DNA from: Thermoplasmatota archaeon
Lineage (GTDB): Archaea; Thermoplasmatota; Poseidoniia; Poseidoniales; Thalassarchaeaceae
Direction: 5' to 3'
DNA length: 56,580 bases
Assembly (NCBI GenBank): GCA_030828405.1
Contig: JAURCP010000001.1
Location: 101,502-158,081 of the forward strand
Shown here in pieces: positions 12,114-18,280 of the stretch. The translations under genes were made by a program, and so were the position numbers. How positions within the stretch are numbered: the first letter of the stretch is position 1; every line of letters starts with the position of its first letter. Under the pieces are notes generated by a model. It had not been told where the DNA came from. It worked only from the letters and a program-made list of their open reading frames with translations, and did no database searches.

Positions 12114-14135
12114 CTAATCGCGACGGGTTGAGTATATGAGACCGATAGTTAATGACAAGATTGTCAAGAACATACTAAAACCAGGTAATAATCCTGATTC
12201 AGAGTCATCCTCAGGAGTAATAGGCTCAATAATTTGAGATTCAAATAAATGACTATTATTTACCATTATTATTATCTCATTACATTTAGAAGAAACATCA
12301 CAACCAATAACTTTCACTTCGTGTTCCCCTTCATCCCATAATCCGAAATTTATCATTGGAGTACTCCATGAGTTTCCGGAAACAGAAATACTTCCAGCAG
12401 ATAATCCATCGACTGATAGAGAAAATTGTACATCCTCTCCATCTGGATCGCTAAATTGTCCTTGTGCCTGCCAAATATCCATTTCCCAACCGTATTCTGT
12501 CATACTAATCATTGGTGGAGAACTCTCTTTAGTTATACCCAGTGAAAATATTTTTTCTGTAGAGTATAAGTCGTCTCCGTTAATCTCTACCCATAAATCA
12601 ACCAAACCCGGAATCATTCCATTGGAGCTAATTAATATGGTTTCATCAGAAGAAATAGTTAATGATTCAATATTTGCCGAATTGATACTTTGAGATTGTG
12701 TAAAAGCATATTGTATTGTCATTTCTGGCCAATTTTCGTTGAATTGTACAGAAACTGGATGTGGATTCAATAAAATTTCAGATGATGTTGTTAGAGAAAT
12801 TGGGACGCCTAAGTTCCAATTTCTAACCCCTGAACTTTGCCCTAAGTCGTCAATCGCTTCACACATCACTTGCGTGTCTTGACCAAAAGTTATTGTTCCA
12901 GAAAAAGACCTATCAGATAATTGATTAATATTTGTCGAAGAGTCTGAACTACAATTTATTTCTAATTGCGAAATAGGTTTCTCATCATTAAACCATGATG
13001 AAACACTATTCCAATCCGCCCAAACAATCTGACCACTTTCTAATGAAGCAAACCAAGTATCATCTTCCGGGGCATTTTCCGACCAAGATGGAGGGTTATT
13101 TATTGGGACTGGTGCAGTAGTAAAATCTACAAAAATATCTTCACCACTAGGCCAAAAATCTCTACTCCTATGAGGCATTAATATGAATTTAGTCCCTTCA
13201 TCTTCAGTATTTTCAAAAATGTAATTTGAAGAATCATCTCCTATACAAGTCCCCCTCAAGGGAGCGTCATCGTGAGTAGATGGCTCAAACTCTACATCTC
13301 TCCCTTCACATTCTTCCCACATATCTAATCTTAAATCTGGGTTATTAGGGAAAGTAAAATCTAACACTGCATTAGTCATATTAGATGCGTTAAATGCCAG
13401 AGTAAACTCATCTCCGTCTTCAATACTAGGAATTACCATTGTGGCATTCATCCACAATTCTAATCTGCACTCATCAACTCCTTCTGATGCATCAATAAGT
13501 GTGTTACAGTCTCTTTCAGAGTTAGGGAATACAGGTACTTCTAAACAATCACTACTAGATCCAATGGCAGTACAATCTCTAATATCTGCATGATTAGATG
13601 GAACCAAATTCCATTCTTGAATAATAACGCCATTATCTTGCCAAGTAGCATTCTTCCAGTCAAGGCCTACTCCTCCTCTATGAGGTGTAGATTCTCTCAA
13701 ACCAATCCTAGTCATTGCATATTCAATACATTCAGATGCTACAGCCTCAACTGCTGATTTTTCATCAGTAGAGATCCAACCATCTCCTCCACTAGGATAA
13801 AGCTCTTCTAAGTAAGAATCAAGTTTTTCTCTCAATAAATCTACGCTGGTACCATTTATCCATGCCCTGGCCTTTACTTCAGCCGAGTCCCAGTCATCGT
13901 CGACTACGATATCGAAATGGGCATGAGTATAAGGTAGAATATCTTCGAAAGTAATAGAACTGCATCTTTCTTCAAGACTTCCTCCTCCACCCAATTGATT
14001 AAAGACAACTTCCTCATCTTCTAATGATAAATATGATTTTTCACTAGGAATAGTCACTGTTAACACCATTAGTGCTGTAATTAACAAGGCCAGATACTGC
14101 TTACCTCCAAACTTCACAACACTCGACACGGGCAT
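12114..14135 (-). CDS. Secreted protein with PGF-CTERM-like anchor
   Basis: This 673-residue exported protein is of an unrecognised family. An N-terminal hydrophobic stretch (YLALLITALMVLTVTIPS, about 14-31) is a signal peptide. The bulk is acidic and beta-rich, with several Cys pairs and Ig-like segments in the second half (for example SPPMISMTEYGWEMDIWQAQGQFSDPDGEDV). The C-terminus reads LLPGFSMFLTILSLTIGLIYSTRRD, that is PGF, a hydrophobic helix, then basic residues. This is the layout of PGF-CTERM proteins processed and lipid-anchored by archaeosortase. The gene diverges from the transferrin-like gene, and its start is only about 35 bases from the first TTTAGG-N4-CCTAAA box, so it may share metal control. 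No function can be assigned. Confidence 0.7.
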   Translation of the reverse strand: MPVSSVVKFGGKQYLALLITALMVLTVTIPSEKSYLSLEDEEVVFNQLGGGGSLEERCSSITFEDILPYTHAHFDIVVDDDWDSAEVKARAWINGTSVDLLREKLDSYLEELYPSGGDGWISTDEKSAVEAVASECIEYAMTRIGLRESTPHRGGVGLDWKNATWQDNGVIIQEWNLVPSNHADIRDCTAIGSSSDCLEVPVFPNSERDCNTLIDASEGVDECRLELWMNATMVIPSIEDGDEFTLAFNASNMTNAVLDFTFPNNPDLRLDMWEECEGRDVEFEPSTHDDAPLRGTCIGDDSSNYIFENTEDEGTKFILMPHRSRDFWPSGEDIFVDFTTAPVPINNPPSWSENAPEDDTWFASLESGQIVWADWNSVSSWFNDEKPISQLEINCSSDSSTNINQLSDRSFSGTITFGQDTQVMCEAIDDLGQSSGVRNWNLGVPISLTTSSEILLNPHPVSVQFNENWPEMTIQYAFTQSQSINSANIESLTISSDETILISSNGMIPGLVDLWVEINGDDLYSTEKIFSLGITKESSPPMISMTEYGWEMDIWQAQGQFSDPDGEDVQFSLSVDGLSAGSISVSGNSWSTPMINFGLWDEGEHEVKVIGCDVSSKCNEIIIMVNNSHLFESQIIEPITPEDDSESGLLPGFSMFLTILSLTIGLIYSTRRD

Positions 14136-14169: not shown

Positions 14170-14185
14170 TTTAGGTTAGCCTAAA
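14170..14185. promoter_or_regulatory. DtxR/IdeR-like operator, box 1
   Basis: The 16-mer TTTAGGTTAGCCTAAA has perfect 6-bp inverted half-sites (TTTAGG/CCTAAA) around a 4-base centre. It resembles IdeR/DtxR iron boxes. It lies just upstream of the TATA element, where the archaeal BRE would be. The matching box 2 lies 43 bases downstream, about four helical turns. Confidence 0.75.
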
Positions 14186-14212: not shown

Positions 14213-14228
14213 TTTAGGTATGCCTAAA
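14213..14228. promoter_or_regulatory. DtxR/IdeR-like operator, box 2
   Basis: TTTAGGTATGCCTAAA has the same half-sites and spacing as box 1 and is again a perfect inverted repeat. It immediately precedes the GGTGAT Shine-Dalgarno at 14230-14235 and overlaps the predicted transcription start. Confidence 0.75.
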
Positions 14229-14238
14229 TGGTGATATG

Positions 14239-16347
14239 ATGAATAATAAAAAATTAGTTTCAAGTTTAATAACAATACTTTTTCTGACAACTGCTCTAGC
14301 CGGGTGTCTTGATAATAATGAGGAAGAAGAGACATTGGGGAGTTTTGTAATAGCTTATGAAATACAATCTGATTATGAGAATATTGATGAAAACCCTCAA
14401 CAATTAGCAGATTATTTTTCTGAGAAGTTGAATTATGATGTTTCACTGTATAGTGTTGATTCTGAAGGAGCAATGATTGAGGCGTTAAGATTCGGTAATG
14501 CGGATATAGCAATCATGGATGCTGGAGCCGCGTGGGTTGGTTGGCAACAGTATGGTTTAGATGCTTTAGGTGCTGATTTAAAGAACGATGGTCGTACTTA
14601 CTATAATGCCCATGCATGGGTAAAAGCAGATAGCGAAATGGCATATGCGCACTTGGATGAAAATCCTTACACTGATCCTTTCGCTTTACTATCAGGAAAG
14701 ACTTCTTGCCATACAGGGTGGTTAAAATCTGCAGGAATGTTATTACCAATGGGTTTCTTGATAGGACATGGATATGCGAATGTCATTGGTGATCCTAATG
14801 ACGTAGAAACAATCAGGAATACGATTTTTGAATATTTCAATGAAAACGCTTCAATTCCTGACTCAGGTACGCCTTACTATGGTTATGAAGGTGCAATAAA
14901 ATGCTTATCTGATGGTACAGGAGATGTTGCTTTTGCAAAGGACAGTACAGTAGATATATTCTGCAATAATGAAGAATCTTCAGATAATAGTGAATGGTGC
15001 CTGCCCAGAGATCAATACGTCGCTTTACCTGCATTCGGCCAATCACCGAGTCATCCAGTAATGTATAATCCACAGCTTATTGATTCTGAATTGTTAAATC
15101 AGGTTACAGATATTTTAGTGGAAATGGGAGATGATTCAGATGCTAGTATGATACTAAGTAATGTCCTAAACACACCAGGAATTATTGCAACCAATGCTAC
15201 AGATCATTTAGGAAGTTATTCTTCATTAATTTCTAATATCCCAGGTATTTCTGCTTATTATAATGATAAATTCAATATTAATGGGACAATTTCTCCAACA
15301 GTCGATAAGGTTAGAATAGCATATGAGGTGAAAGCAGATTATGAGAATATTGATGAGAATCCTCAACTCTTGGCTGATTACTTATCCGATGTATTAGAGA
15401 TACCTGTCGAACTATACAGCGTTGATTCAGAAGGAGCTATTATTGAGGCCCTAAGATTTGGTAATGCAGATATTGCTTTTATGGACGGTGGAGCAGCATG
15501 GGTTGGCTGGAAAGAATACGGGTTAGCGGCGATGGCAGCTGATCAGAAGTCTGATGGTCGTACTTATTACAACGCCCATGCTTGGGTAAAAGCAGATAGC
15601 GAAATGGCTGCTGCCTACTTAGATGATGATCTATCTACTGATCCATTTTCTCTTCTAGAAGGAAAAACATCTTGTCATACTGGTTGGTTGAAATCAGCAG
15701 GTATGCTATTGCCAATGGGGTACTTAATTGGTAATGATTATGCTACTGTAATTGGTGATGACGATGACATTGCCTCATTAAGAGATACAATAAATGGATT
15801 CTTCAGTTCAGATGCTTCAATCCCTGATTCTGGAACTCCATACTATGGTTATTCTGGCGCAGTTAAATGCCTATCAGATGGTACTGGTGACGTAGCATTT
15901 GCAAAAGATAGTACGGTGGATTCTTACTGTGGTAATGATGATTCCAATCAAAATGAAGATTGGTGCCTCGAAAGAGACCAATACGTTGCCTTACCAACAT
16001 TTGGGCAGGCTCCAAGCCATCCAGTAATGTATAATCCTCAATTATTAGATATTCAAACAAGAACTTCAGTTCTTAATGCTTTGATGTCTCTGAATTATGA
16101 GATGTATGTAGAAAATTATTCCGTAGCAGGTACTACATATACTGGATGTTATGATATATCTGTCCATGTAATCGATGAAGATTCTCCAAAAAATAATTGT
16201 GGTGATGAAATCTTATCAAATGTATTGAATACTCCGGGTTTAATTAGAATAACTTCTCAAGATCACTTAGGTAGTTACTCTGATTTAATTTCTAATATCC
16301 CTGGGATTTCAAACTACTTTAGCGATATATTCGAAATAGATGAATGA
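14239..16347 (+). CDS. Bilobal transferrin-like iron-binding lipoprotein of an ABC importer
   Basis: Residue numbers count from ATG 14236. ATG 14239 is preferred because it sits three bases after GGTGAT. A lipobox (TALAGC24) marks membrane anchoring. Two lobes (about 37-350 and 359-703, offset exactly 322) are roughly three quarters identical over their first 100 residues. Each lobe has the transferrin signature. MDAG with D95/D417 (second copy MDGG) matches human D63. RTYY with Y122-123/Y444-445 matches Y95. SCHTG with T160/T482 is the carbonate loop, with K164/K486 where Arg124 sits. YGY(E/S)GA(I/V)KC with Y217/Y539 matches Y188. PSH with H273/H595 matches H249. Cys158-223 and Cys243-255, and their lobe-2 equivalents, match conserved transferrin disulfides. 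Automatic annotation would probably say PhnD-like. Family alignment was made from memory of human transferrin. The likely role is extracellular Fe(III) capture. Confidence 0.9.
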   Translation: MNNKKLVSSLITILFLTTALAGCLDNNEEEETLGSFVIAYEIQSDYENIDENPQQLADYFSEKLNYDVSLYSVDSEGAMIEALRFGNADIAIMDAGAAWVGWQQYGLDALGADLKNDGRTYYNAHAWVKADSEMAYAHLDENPYTDPFALLSGKTSCHTGWLKSAGMLLPMGFLIGHGYANVIGDPNDVETIRNTIFEYFNENASIPDSGTPYYGYEGAIKCLSDGTGDVAFAKDSTVDIFCNNEESSDNSEWCLPRDQYVALPAFGQSPSHPVMYNPQLIDSELLNQVTDILVEMGDDSDASMILSNVLNTPGIIATNATDHLGSYSSLISNIPGISAYYNDKFNINGTISPTVDKVRIAYEVKADYENIDENPQLLADYLSDVLEIPVELYSVDSEGAIIEALRFGNADIAFMDGGAAWVGWKEYGLAAMAADQKSDGRTYYNAHAWVKADSEMAAAYLDDDLSTDPFSLLEGKTSCHTGWLKSAGMLLPMGYLIGNDYATVIGDDDDIASLRDTINGFFSSDASIPDSGTPYYGYSGAVKCLSDGTGDVAFAKDSTVDSYCGNDDSNQNEDWCLERDQYVALPTFGQAPSHPVMYNPQLLDIQTRTSVLNALMSLNYEMYVENYSVAGTTYTGCYDISVHVIDEDSPKNNCGDEILSNVLNTPGLIRITSQDHLGSYSDLISNIPGISNYFSDIFEIDE

Positions 16348-16398: not shown

Positions 16399-16414
16399 TT
16401 TAGCCTCCCCTAAA
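16399..16414. promoter_or_regulatory. DtxR/IdeR-like operator, box 3 (imperfect)
   Basis: TTTAGCCTCCCCTAAA keeps the 16-base layout with one mismatch in the left half-site (TTTAGC/CCTAAA). It lies 25 bases before the ATPase gene, suggesting a second, separately controlled promoter for the ATPase and permease. Confidence 0.55.
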
Positions 16415-16439: not shown

Positions 16440-17219
16440 ATGAATGAAATCATAGCGAAGGGTCAAGTCAATCGAAATCCAATCATTAAGTTGATAGATG
16501 TTGAAATCGGTTATGATTATAATCAACCTTTAGTTAAGATTCCAGATTTAGAGATTTTCCCTGGTGAGATAGTTGCTATCGCAGGTCCATCAGGTGTTGG
16601 AAAAACAACTCTTCTAAGGACAATTGCTGGTTTAGTTAGGCCAATCTCAGGGATGCTAGAAGTATGTGGAGCAACTCATCCGTCTAAACCCGTTAGAGGA
16701 TCATTAGGATATGTCCCACAACGTCTTGGTTTAGTGCGTCATACTAGCGTAATCCATAATGTGATGATTGGAGCAAATGCAGGGCATAACAAATCATTAT
16801 GGTCAATCCTGACTTCTGAAGAACCGAAATTAAGTTCAATATGGTCAAAAATCACTTCAAAAAATGCAAAAAAACATGCATTATCTGCAATTGAATCAAT
16901 GGGACTTACTGAAAAATTAAATGAACCAATTAGAAAGCTTTCTGGAGGTCAGCAAAGAAGAGTCGCTACTGCTAGAACTCTTGCTCAACAACCTTCTTTG
17001 ATAATGGCTGATGAGTTTCTTAGTGAATTAGATGAAGAAACGATGAAAATGGTTCTGAATGAAGTTACAGAATACATCAGAAACAGCGATGCAGCTTTAC
17101 TAGTTGTTGAACACGATATATCTAGAGCTAAATCAATGGCAGATAGGCTATTGGTAATTGATGATGGTCGTGTGAACCCGTTCATTTCAGAGGTAACTGC
17201 TATCGAGGTGAAAATATGA
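16440..17219 (+). CDS. PhnC-like ABC transporter ATPase
   Basis: This 259-residue ATP-binding subunit energises import at the cytoplasmic face of the membrane. Walker A is GPSGVGKTT, the Q-loop lies in YVPQRLG, the ABC signature is KLSGGQQRR, Walker B is LIMADEF followed by LSELDEE (D-loop region), and the switch His is in VVEHD. The Walker B catalytic residue is the usual Glu (DE). Length and sequence resemble PhnC, the ATPase of phosphonate/phosphite importers. The stop overlaps the permease start (ATGA at 17216-17219), indicating translational coupling. Given the transferrin-like binding protein upstream and the metal-type box at 16399-16414, an iron substrate is inferred rather than phosphonate. 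GGTGA lies about six bases before the ATG. Confidence 0.9.
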   Translation: MNEIIAKGQVNRNPIIKLIDVEIGYDYNQPLVKIPDLEIFPGEIVAIAGPSGVGKTTLLRTIAGLVRPISGMLEVCGATHPSKPVRGSLGYVPQRLGLVRHTSVIHNVMIGANAGHNKSLWSILTSEEPKLSSIWSKITSKNAKKHALSAIESMGLTEKLNEPIRKLSGGQQRRVATARTLAQQPSLIMADEFLSELDEETMKMVLNEVTEYIRNSDAALLVVEHDISRAKSMADRLLVIDDGRVNPFISEVTAIEVKI

Positions 17220-18280
17220 AGCGTAATGTCGTTTCGTTTGTTGGGCCGCTTCCATTTTTAATTTACTTTACATCTGCATTATTAGTGATGTATATCCTCG
17301 CACCACAGAAACTTGCTTTATACATAATATCGGCAATCCCAATTATGATAATCTCACTTATGGCATTATCGATAATAGCAATCATGATATCTTCCGGTAA
17401 TTATCTGATTAAATTATCTTTATTGTCAACAATCTTATTTTCCTTTTGGATATTTAACGAAATGGTTGATGGAGATTGGGGTAGGTTATCAGGAAGTTTT
17501 GAGAATCTATTTATGTTCTTTAGTGAATCATTATGGCCTCCTGACTGGAGTGTGATAGAACCGCAGGCATATCCTGTTTGTACAGTATATCCTTTGTTTG
17601 ATTTCACATGTTCAACAGCATGGATAGGCTTAGTAGAGACTCTAAAGATAGCATTTGTTTCAACTGTATTTGGCATGATGTTATCATTACCGATATCGTT
17701 ACTCGCAGCAAGAAACTTGAATTATTGGTGGGTATCATACATTTTTAGATTCATTTTAGCATCTTTTAGAAGTTTGCCGAGTATTATCTGGGCAATATTT
17801 TTTGTTATTCTTGTTGGTTTTGGTCCTTTGTCAGGAGTTTTAGCTATGACTGTTTACACTGTAGGATACTTGGGCAAACTTCAGTATGAAGCAATTGAAG
17901 GTTTGAATAAAACTCCTCTCTATGCCGCTCAGGCTATGGGTTTATCTAAAATTCAGACCGCTTACCAAGTAGTTATTCCAGAGTCTGCTAATGATATTAT
18001 TTCTCAAGCAATTTTTATGTTTGAATATAATTTTAGACATGGAACAGTAATAGGAATTGTTGGTGCTGGTGGGATAGGGTATTACATCAATCTATATTTG
18101 AAATTCTTACAGTATGATAAGGTCATTGCATATTTGATAATCATCTTTATTGTAGTTTTAATCATCGATTTGATATCTATTTTTGCTCGTTCGTTCTTTA
18201 CAGAAGGCGGAGATACGCCGAGAAGGCCATCCTGGTTCGGAGTTTTCCTACCTTCTGCGATGTTAAGATCTAAAAAATAA
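17216..18280 (+). CDS. PhnE-like ABC transporter permease
   Basis: This 354-residue integral membrane protein forms the import channel. The second half is a standard type-I ABC permease domain with the EAA-type coupling loop EAIEGLNKTPLYAAQAMGLS and the PhnE-like GFGPLSGVLAMTVYTVGYLG segment. The N-terminal ~115 residues add about three membrane helices (including FLIYFTSALLVMYILA and IISAIPIMIISLMALSIIAIM) and an extracytoplasmic loop with a Cys pair near 122-131. This makes it longer than E. coli PhnE (~260-276 residues). It overlaps the ATPase by four bases and completes a binding protein-ATPase-permease set. It probably homodimerises, since only one permease gene is present. It is convergent with gpsA. 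Confidence 0.9.
   Translation: MKRNVVSFVGPLPFLIYFTSALLVMYILAPQKLALYIISAIPIMIISLMALSIIAIMISSGNYLIKLSLLSTILFSFWIFNEMVDGDWGRLSGSFENLFMFFSESLWPPDWSVIEPQAYPVCTVYPLFDFTCSTAWIGLVETLKIAFVSTVFGMMLSLPISLLAARNLNYWWVSYIFRFILASFRSLPSIIWAIFFVILVGFGPLSGVLAMTVYTVGYLGKLQYEAIEGLNKTPLYAAQAMGLSKIQTAYQVVIPESANDIISQAIFMFEYNFRHGTVIGIVGAGGIGYYINLYLKFLQYDKVIAYLIIIFIVVLIIDLISIFARSFFTEGGDTPRRPSWFGVFLPSAMLRSKK

Follow-up and report, generated by a model that had tools for sequence, protein, structure and literature searches.

Transferrins are usually regarded as proteins of animals and of some algae. The presence of a gene for a two-lobed, transferrin-like lipoprotein in a 56,580-nucleotide stretch of DNA (the window) from an archaeon of the order Poseidoniales raises the question of what such a protein does in this organism, and of where its two lobes come from. 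As judged from the sequence, the product is very probably a surface-anchored, Fe(III)-binding protein of the transferrin type, which would act as the binding protein of an iron-repressed ABC importer in Poseidoniales (Marine Group II). A literature search, with most subscription journals outside its reach, returned no description of an archaeal transferrin, and the word was absent from three Marine Group II genome papers.

A two-lobed lipoprotein

The gene (here named tf) extends from 14236 to 16347 on the forward strand and encodes 703 amino acids, starting with a signal peptide and the lipobox LAGC24. The start at 14344 given in the preliminary description is internal to this open reading frame. 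Lobe 1 (residues 26-347; 14311 to 15276) and lobe 2 (residues 348-703; 15277 to 16344), both on the forward strand, are delimited by the lobe alignment together with an AlphaFold model of lobe 1 and a full-length model, respectively. The two lobes align without gaps at an offset of 322 residues, as originally described, up to about residue 284 of lobe 1 and 606 of lobe 2, with 187 of 268 positions identical at this offset and only 10-25 at neighbouring ones. Identity amounts to about 75% over the first 100 core positions, in agreement with the three quarters first estimated, and to 69% (222/322) in a global comparison of the lobes.

Lobe 2 holds in addition about 34 residues around positions 606-655, among them C638 and C655 (16147 to 16200, forward strand). 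The suggestion that this Cys pair distinguishes the lobes is confirmed by the family alignment, where such a pair is found in 50 of 50 C-lobes, in none of 50 N-lobes, and in 9 of 58 one-lobe proteins. A lobe-2-type insert with its Cys pair is seemingly present, at the same position, in two one-lobe proteins of a basal group (L092, 494-1597, and L093, 5326-6417). It may therefore predate the duplication, or may have been gained twice.

The Transferrin profile of Pfam (PF00405) matches the 703-residue protein with 143.2 bits (cut-off 20.3) and had no match in any of 14 control prokaryote genomes, while the Phosphonate-bd profile (PF12974) reaches 132 bits. When the PDB is searched by profile and by sequence, lactoferrin and transferrin come out at the top (E 1e-27, 3e-35). 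The fold matches of the lobe 1 model (pLDDT 89.4) are approximately equal for the two families, with PtxB first (4e-15) and melanotransferrin and transferrin from 7e-15 onward. Transferrins are the first match of the full-length model (2e-28) with TM-scores of about 0.3, which indicates superposition of no more than a single lobe at once; the pTM of this model is 0.56, and the relative position of its lobes is unreliable. The kinship between PhnD and transferrins is already reflected in the NCBI name "PhnD/SsuA/transferrin family".

The predicted iron and anion site

The residues of the site were assigned by alignment with human serum transferrin (Tf), using a reference sequence identical to that of PDB 4h0w; the sequence of human lactoferrin (Lf) was also verified. 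Both lobes hold equivalents of Asp63, Tyr95, Thr120, Ala126, Gly127, Tyr188, Lys206, and His249. The four iron ligands, all encoded on the forward strand, correspond to Asp95 (14518 to 14520), Tyr123 (14602 to 14604), Tyr217 (14884 to 14886), and His273 (15052 to 15054) in lobe 1, and to Asp417 (15484-15486), Tyr445 (15568-15570), Tyr539 (15850-15852), and His595 (16018-16020) in lobe 2. This Asp/Tyr/Tyr/His set is near invariant among the family genes with an intact site. The two cysteines of the Tf 118-194 disulfide are both present in 158 of 158 archaeal lobes, where the bond itself is predicted from sequence.

The anion site reads Thr-x3-Lys-Ser-Ala-Gly in both lobes, within the loop CHTGWLKSAG. 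It thus keeps the equivalents of Thr120 and of Ala126-Gly127, and has a lysine at the position of Arg124: Lys164 (14725 to 14727) in lobe 1 and Lys486 (15691-15693) in lobe 2, both on the forward strand. These lysines had been described as replacing the transferrin arginine. The residues are real, but Lys is the usual residue throughout the archaeal family (127 of 158 lobes, with Arg in none), and for this reason no direction of change between Arg and Lys is demonstrated by the word "replacing". The position is occupied by Gly in seven one-lobe proteins, is variable in degenerate lobes, and is Ser in PhnD proteins. A one-lobe subgroup (L097, L102, and L113-L116) carries the loop CHTSALGSSG, with Gly for the anion-site Lys, and keeps all four iron ligands.

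Operon and proposed mechanism

The tf gene is the first of an operon, followed on the same strand by a PhnC-like ABC ATPase (16440 to 17219), whose best match is TIGR02315 with 141 bits, under the equivalog cut-off, and by a PhnE-type ABC permease (17216 to 18280; TIGR01097, 229.5 bits, cut-off 216.7). The same order of tf, PhnC-like ATPase, and PhnE permease is found in most loci of the family, the majority of which represent a single syntenic locus (up673/up249/up327, tf, ATPase, permease, gpsA). Divergent to the operon, on the reverse strand (12114-14135), lies a gene whose 673-residue product is apparently secreted, ends in a hydrophobic stretch towards the C-terminus, and matches no Pfam profile. 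This gene is conserved beside the tf operon across the order, and its product is possibly linked to it.

In the mechanism proposed, each lobe would act as a two-domain clamp of the periplasmic-binding-protein type that closes over a single Fe(III) ion, the ligands being Asp, two Tyr, and His together with a synergistic anion, probably carbonate. The anion would be seated at a helix start marked by the Thr-x3-Lys-Ser-Ala-Gly motif, with Lys in the role of Arg124. Loaded lobes would then pass their iron to the permease of the PhnC/PhnE-type importer, and a DtxR/IdeR-type repressor, bound to tandem boxes, would close the operon once the iron of the cell is sufficient.

The same protein could instead be a binding protein for phosphonate, phosphite, or another oxyanion, of the PhnD/PtxB type and merely transferrin-like. 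The 132 bits of PF12974, the permease above its cut-off, and PtxB as the top fold match all speak for this alternative, and it counts against the iron reading that the PF12974 score and the fold suit PhnD nearly as well as transferrin. It is nevertheless very improbable, considering that the protein stays below the cut-offs of the profiles TIGR03431 (67.1 of 261.1 bits) and TIGR01098 (93.4 of 112.05), that its ligands are near invariant in the genes with an intact site, and that iron-type boxes lie upstream. The S-T-S-G anion loop of PhnD is absent, with CHTGWLKSAG in its place, and none of nine PhnD-type proteins has the Asp, the Cys pair, or a Lys or Arg at the anion position, with the Tyr-His pair in at most one. 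A search of 97 Poseidoniales genomes for the C-P lyase PhnJ gave no hit. Phosphonate uptake in particular is not favoured, in view of the sub-cut-off PhnD profiles, the absence of PhnJ, and the replaced anion loop.

Also in favour of the iron reading, searches of the window genome (81% complete) found no second PhnD-family protein and no siderophore-type binding protein (PF01497); for FeoB, the FeoB_N profile gave only short GTPase matches, none of FeoB length.

Iron-type boxes and a putative regulator

Just upstream of the tf start codon, two exact copies of the palindrome TTTAGGnnnnCCTAAA flank a TATA-like stretch. They form the predicted DtxR/IdeR-type operators TTTAGGTTAGCCTAAA (14170 to 14185) and TTTAGGTATGCCTAAA (14213 to 14228), the latter beside the start codon, and are the only exact copies of TTTAGGnnnnCCTAAA in the 1.4-Mb genome (control 0). 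A third predicted operator, TTTAGCCTCCCCTAAA (16399 to 16414), is imperfect, with 1 mismatch, and is located upstream of the ATPase gene. The 14-bp consensus of IdeR/DtxR is TTAGGNNNNCCTAA (PMC8464063), and both exact boxes at the tf promoter agree with it.

The signal extends over the family: a box matching at least 10 of 12 positions is found in 89 of 105 upstream regions, that of the window included, compared with 3% of random stretches, and 23 of 84 ATPase genes have a box upstream, often an exact one, in the position of the third operator of the window. The window genome encodes one DtxR-family regulator. The family-wide occurrence of the box points to iron control. However, DtxR-family regulators include Mn sensors (PMC10317159), and the fact that their sites can mark manganese regulation too counts against the iron reading. 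An importer for another metal or for an iron complex (Mn, Fe-citrate, or haem), controlled by a repressor of the DtxR/MntR type, would also suit an ABC system of the PhnD type, which does not count among the classic systems for iron. This alternative is improbable, since the pocket of Asp, two Tyr, His, and anion is the set with which transferrin holds Fe(III), and the boxes fit the iron-type consensus TTAGGNNNNCCTAA. The lobes, their residues, the operon, the boxes, the repressor gene in the genome, and the independence and age of the duplication can be read from the sequence, while iron binding, carbonate binding, transport, and repression are what we infer for the tf operon.

A haloarchaeal relative from Natronococcus, without the Asp and the Cys, is encoded between a metal-dependent regulator and genes for an ATPase and a PhnE permease. 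This plasmid-borne gene (L119, 5905-6932) is split by a frameshift and does not appear in the gene table of its record.

Age and independence of the lobe duplication

The preliminary description considered the duplication independent of the animal one, and either recent or homogenised. In a tree of 159 lobes, each lobe of the window protein, N or C, is placed with its counterparts from other species, while the human N and C lobes fall together, outside the archaeal lobes. The C group consists of 50 C-lobes, 7 one-lobe proteins, and 4 N-lobes; the position of these N-lobes (L028, L030, L031, and L033) suggests lobe conversion or re-duplication in their genes. A second tree combined archaeal lobes with the lobes of human Tf and Lf and nine PhnD-type proteins. 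Here, the N and C lobes of Tf and Lf form one clade (100/100), separate from all archaeal lobes, and constrained trees that join animal and archaeal N-lobes, or animal and archaeal C-lobes, are rejected by the AU test (p 1e-78 and 2e-61). A tree in which archaeal lobes 1 and 2 group separately with the animal N and C lobes, named beforehand as the outcome that would speak against independence, was looked for and not obtained, and the single-lobe phylogeny supports two separate duplications.

Neither the proposed recency nor homogenisation stands for the window gene. At the fourfold-degenerate codons shared by its lobes, 27 of 70 have the same third base, where 25.2 are expected by chance. Because synonymous sites are saturated, the duplication is old and constrained, and the high identity of the lobes, which group with their orthologues across species, reflects constraint. 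The second lobe goes back to a duplication within the gene that took place early in the history of Poseidoniales and is distinct from the animal event.

Whether the iron site itself has a single origin is a different matter. Animal and archaeal lobes stand together opposite the PhnD proteins (100/99) and have in common the four ligands, the Thr, the Ala-Gly, and the Cys pair. On the other hand, the groups are joined by very long branches, PhnD-type and transferrin fold scores are alike, and the PhnD-type outgroups numbered just nine. It is conceivable, although we lean against it, that the Asp/Tyr/Tyr/His site evolved twice, in archaeal and animal proteins separately from PhnD-like ancestors. 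A shared origin of the sites is therefore, on account of the long branches, less certain than the separate duplications.

One-lobe genes and doubles without an iron site

A homologue is encoded in 117 of 390 Thermoplasmatota genomes and, within the order of the window, in 110 of 127 (about 87%, as a count of listed rows). The nearest named relatives belong to Marine Group II, Thalassarchaeaceae, and Poseidoniales, with that of UBA257 being 98% identical. No relatives were found among phage records or viral contigs, and viral or phage carriage was rejected. An apparent bacterial copy labelled Flavobacteriaceae (L052) was also rejected: its 1.5-Mb bin, probably mislabelled or mixed, shows the archaeal operon and synteny.

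One-lobe versions, for which a survey had been recommended, do exist, at the same syntenic locus as the two-lobe genes. In the tree they branch both below the duplication and within the N and C groups, so that, according to their placement, some are ancestral and others secondary losses. The nested ones are mosaics, or N-lobes that end in a short stretch of C-lobe, or C-like for the most part, a make-up as expected from recombination between lobes; lobe exchange does seem to occur in members other than the window gene (L050, L051, and L060). It is unlikely that the nested genes are instead assembly artefacts of collapsed repeats. Most come from metagenome bins and several are N/C mosaics, as such artefacts might be, but records with single-cell-style isolate titles show both forms (two-lobe in L039, one-lobe in L050), the longest identical run between the lobes of the window gene is 26 bases, and the one-lobe genes lie at the same syntenic locus in normal operons.

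In a clade of two-lobe genes from Thalassarchaeaceae most ligands are lost, nearly always in both lobes. Of the 36 doubles whose site is intact, 35 have a box at their own start, as against 0 of the 12 whose site is lost (Fisher p 9e-11, all genes), although only one or two events in the tree are involved, which makes the co-loss suggestive rather than a strong statistical test. Taken so, it would fit iron as the cargo of the intact forms. The ATPase gene downstream of most dead doubles retains a box of its own, and in many genomes the dead double is accompanied by an intact one-lobe gene that has a box (L079-L085, L118). An intact one-lobe gene is co-resident with the two-lobe genes L079, L080, L081, L082, L083, L084, L085, and L086, whose iron site is lost or damaged.

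Taken jointly, these observations would allow a scenario whose chances we consider evenly balanced. A prokaryotic ABC-importer protein, derived from the PhnD family and already holding the full iron site, would be the ancestor of animal and archaeal transferrins, whose lobes doubled separately; one clade of archaeal doubles would have lost iron binding and control and taken another role, leaving the iron job to a one-lobe relative.

Comparison with known systems

If the proposal is true, a conserved, iron-box-controlled transferrin importer would explain iron acquisition in a very abundant order of uncultured ocean archaea, and both the origin of transferrins and the rationale for two lobes could be tested on its one-lobe, two-lobe, and iron-dead relatives. 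The proposed role is like that of the bacterial proteins FbpA, FutA, and AfuA, which bind Fe(III) for ABC importers, but these have one lobe and belong to a different sequence family. With PhnD and PtxB (PF12974) the protein shares the fold, the PhnC/PhnE type of operon, and, by prediction, an anion at the start of a helix, while the sampled members differ in having an S-x-S anion loop and neither the Asp nor the Cys pair, with eight of nine also lacking the Tyr-His pair.

The diatom phytotransferrin ISIP2A (PMC7972479) sits at the surface of a marine cell and binds Fe(III) in dependence on carbonate, as would the archaeal protein. Unlike the archaeal protein, to which it is likened by description and not by sequence, ISIP2A is eukaryotic and endocytosed, and works with no ABC importer. 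Should the comparison hold, archaeal iron uptake could hang on seawater carbonate, as proposed for diatoms.

Melanotransferrin and the transferrins with an inactive lobe offer a parallel for the metal sites lost in some archaeal doubles, although the latter usually lose the sites of both lobes, and an intact one-lobe gene is present in the same genomes. With animal transferrins and lactoferrin the protein has in common two lobes, each with the equivalents of D63/Y95/Y188/H249, T120, A126-G127, and C118-C194. From these, the archaeal protein is set apart by its predicted place as a lipid-anchored component of an ABC importer, the Lys at position 124, fewer disulfides, an independent lobe duplication, an insert in lobe 2 that brings a Cys pair of its own, and DtxR-type boxes.
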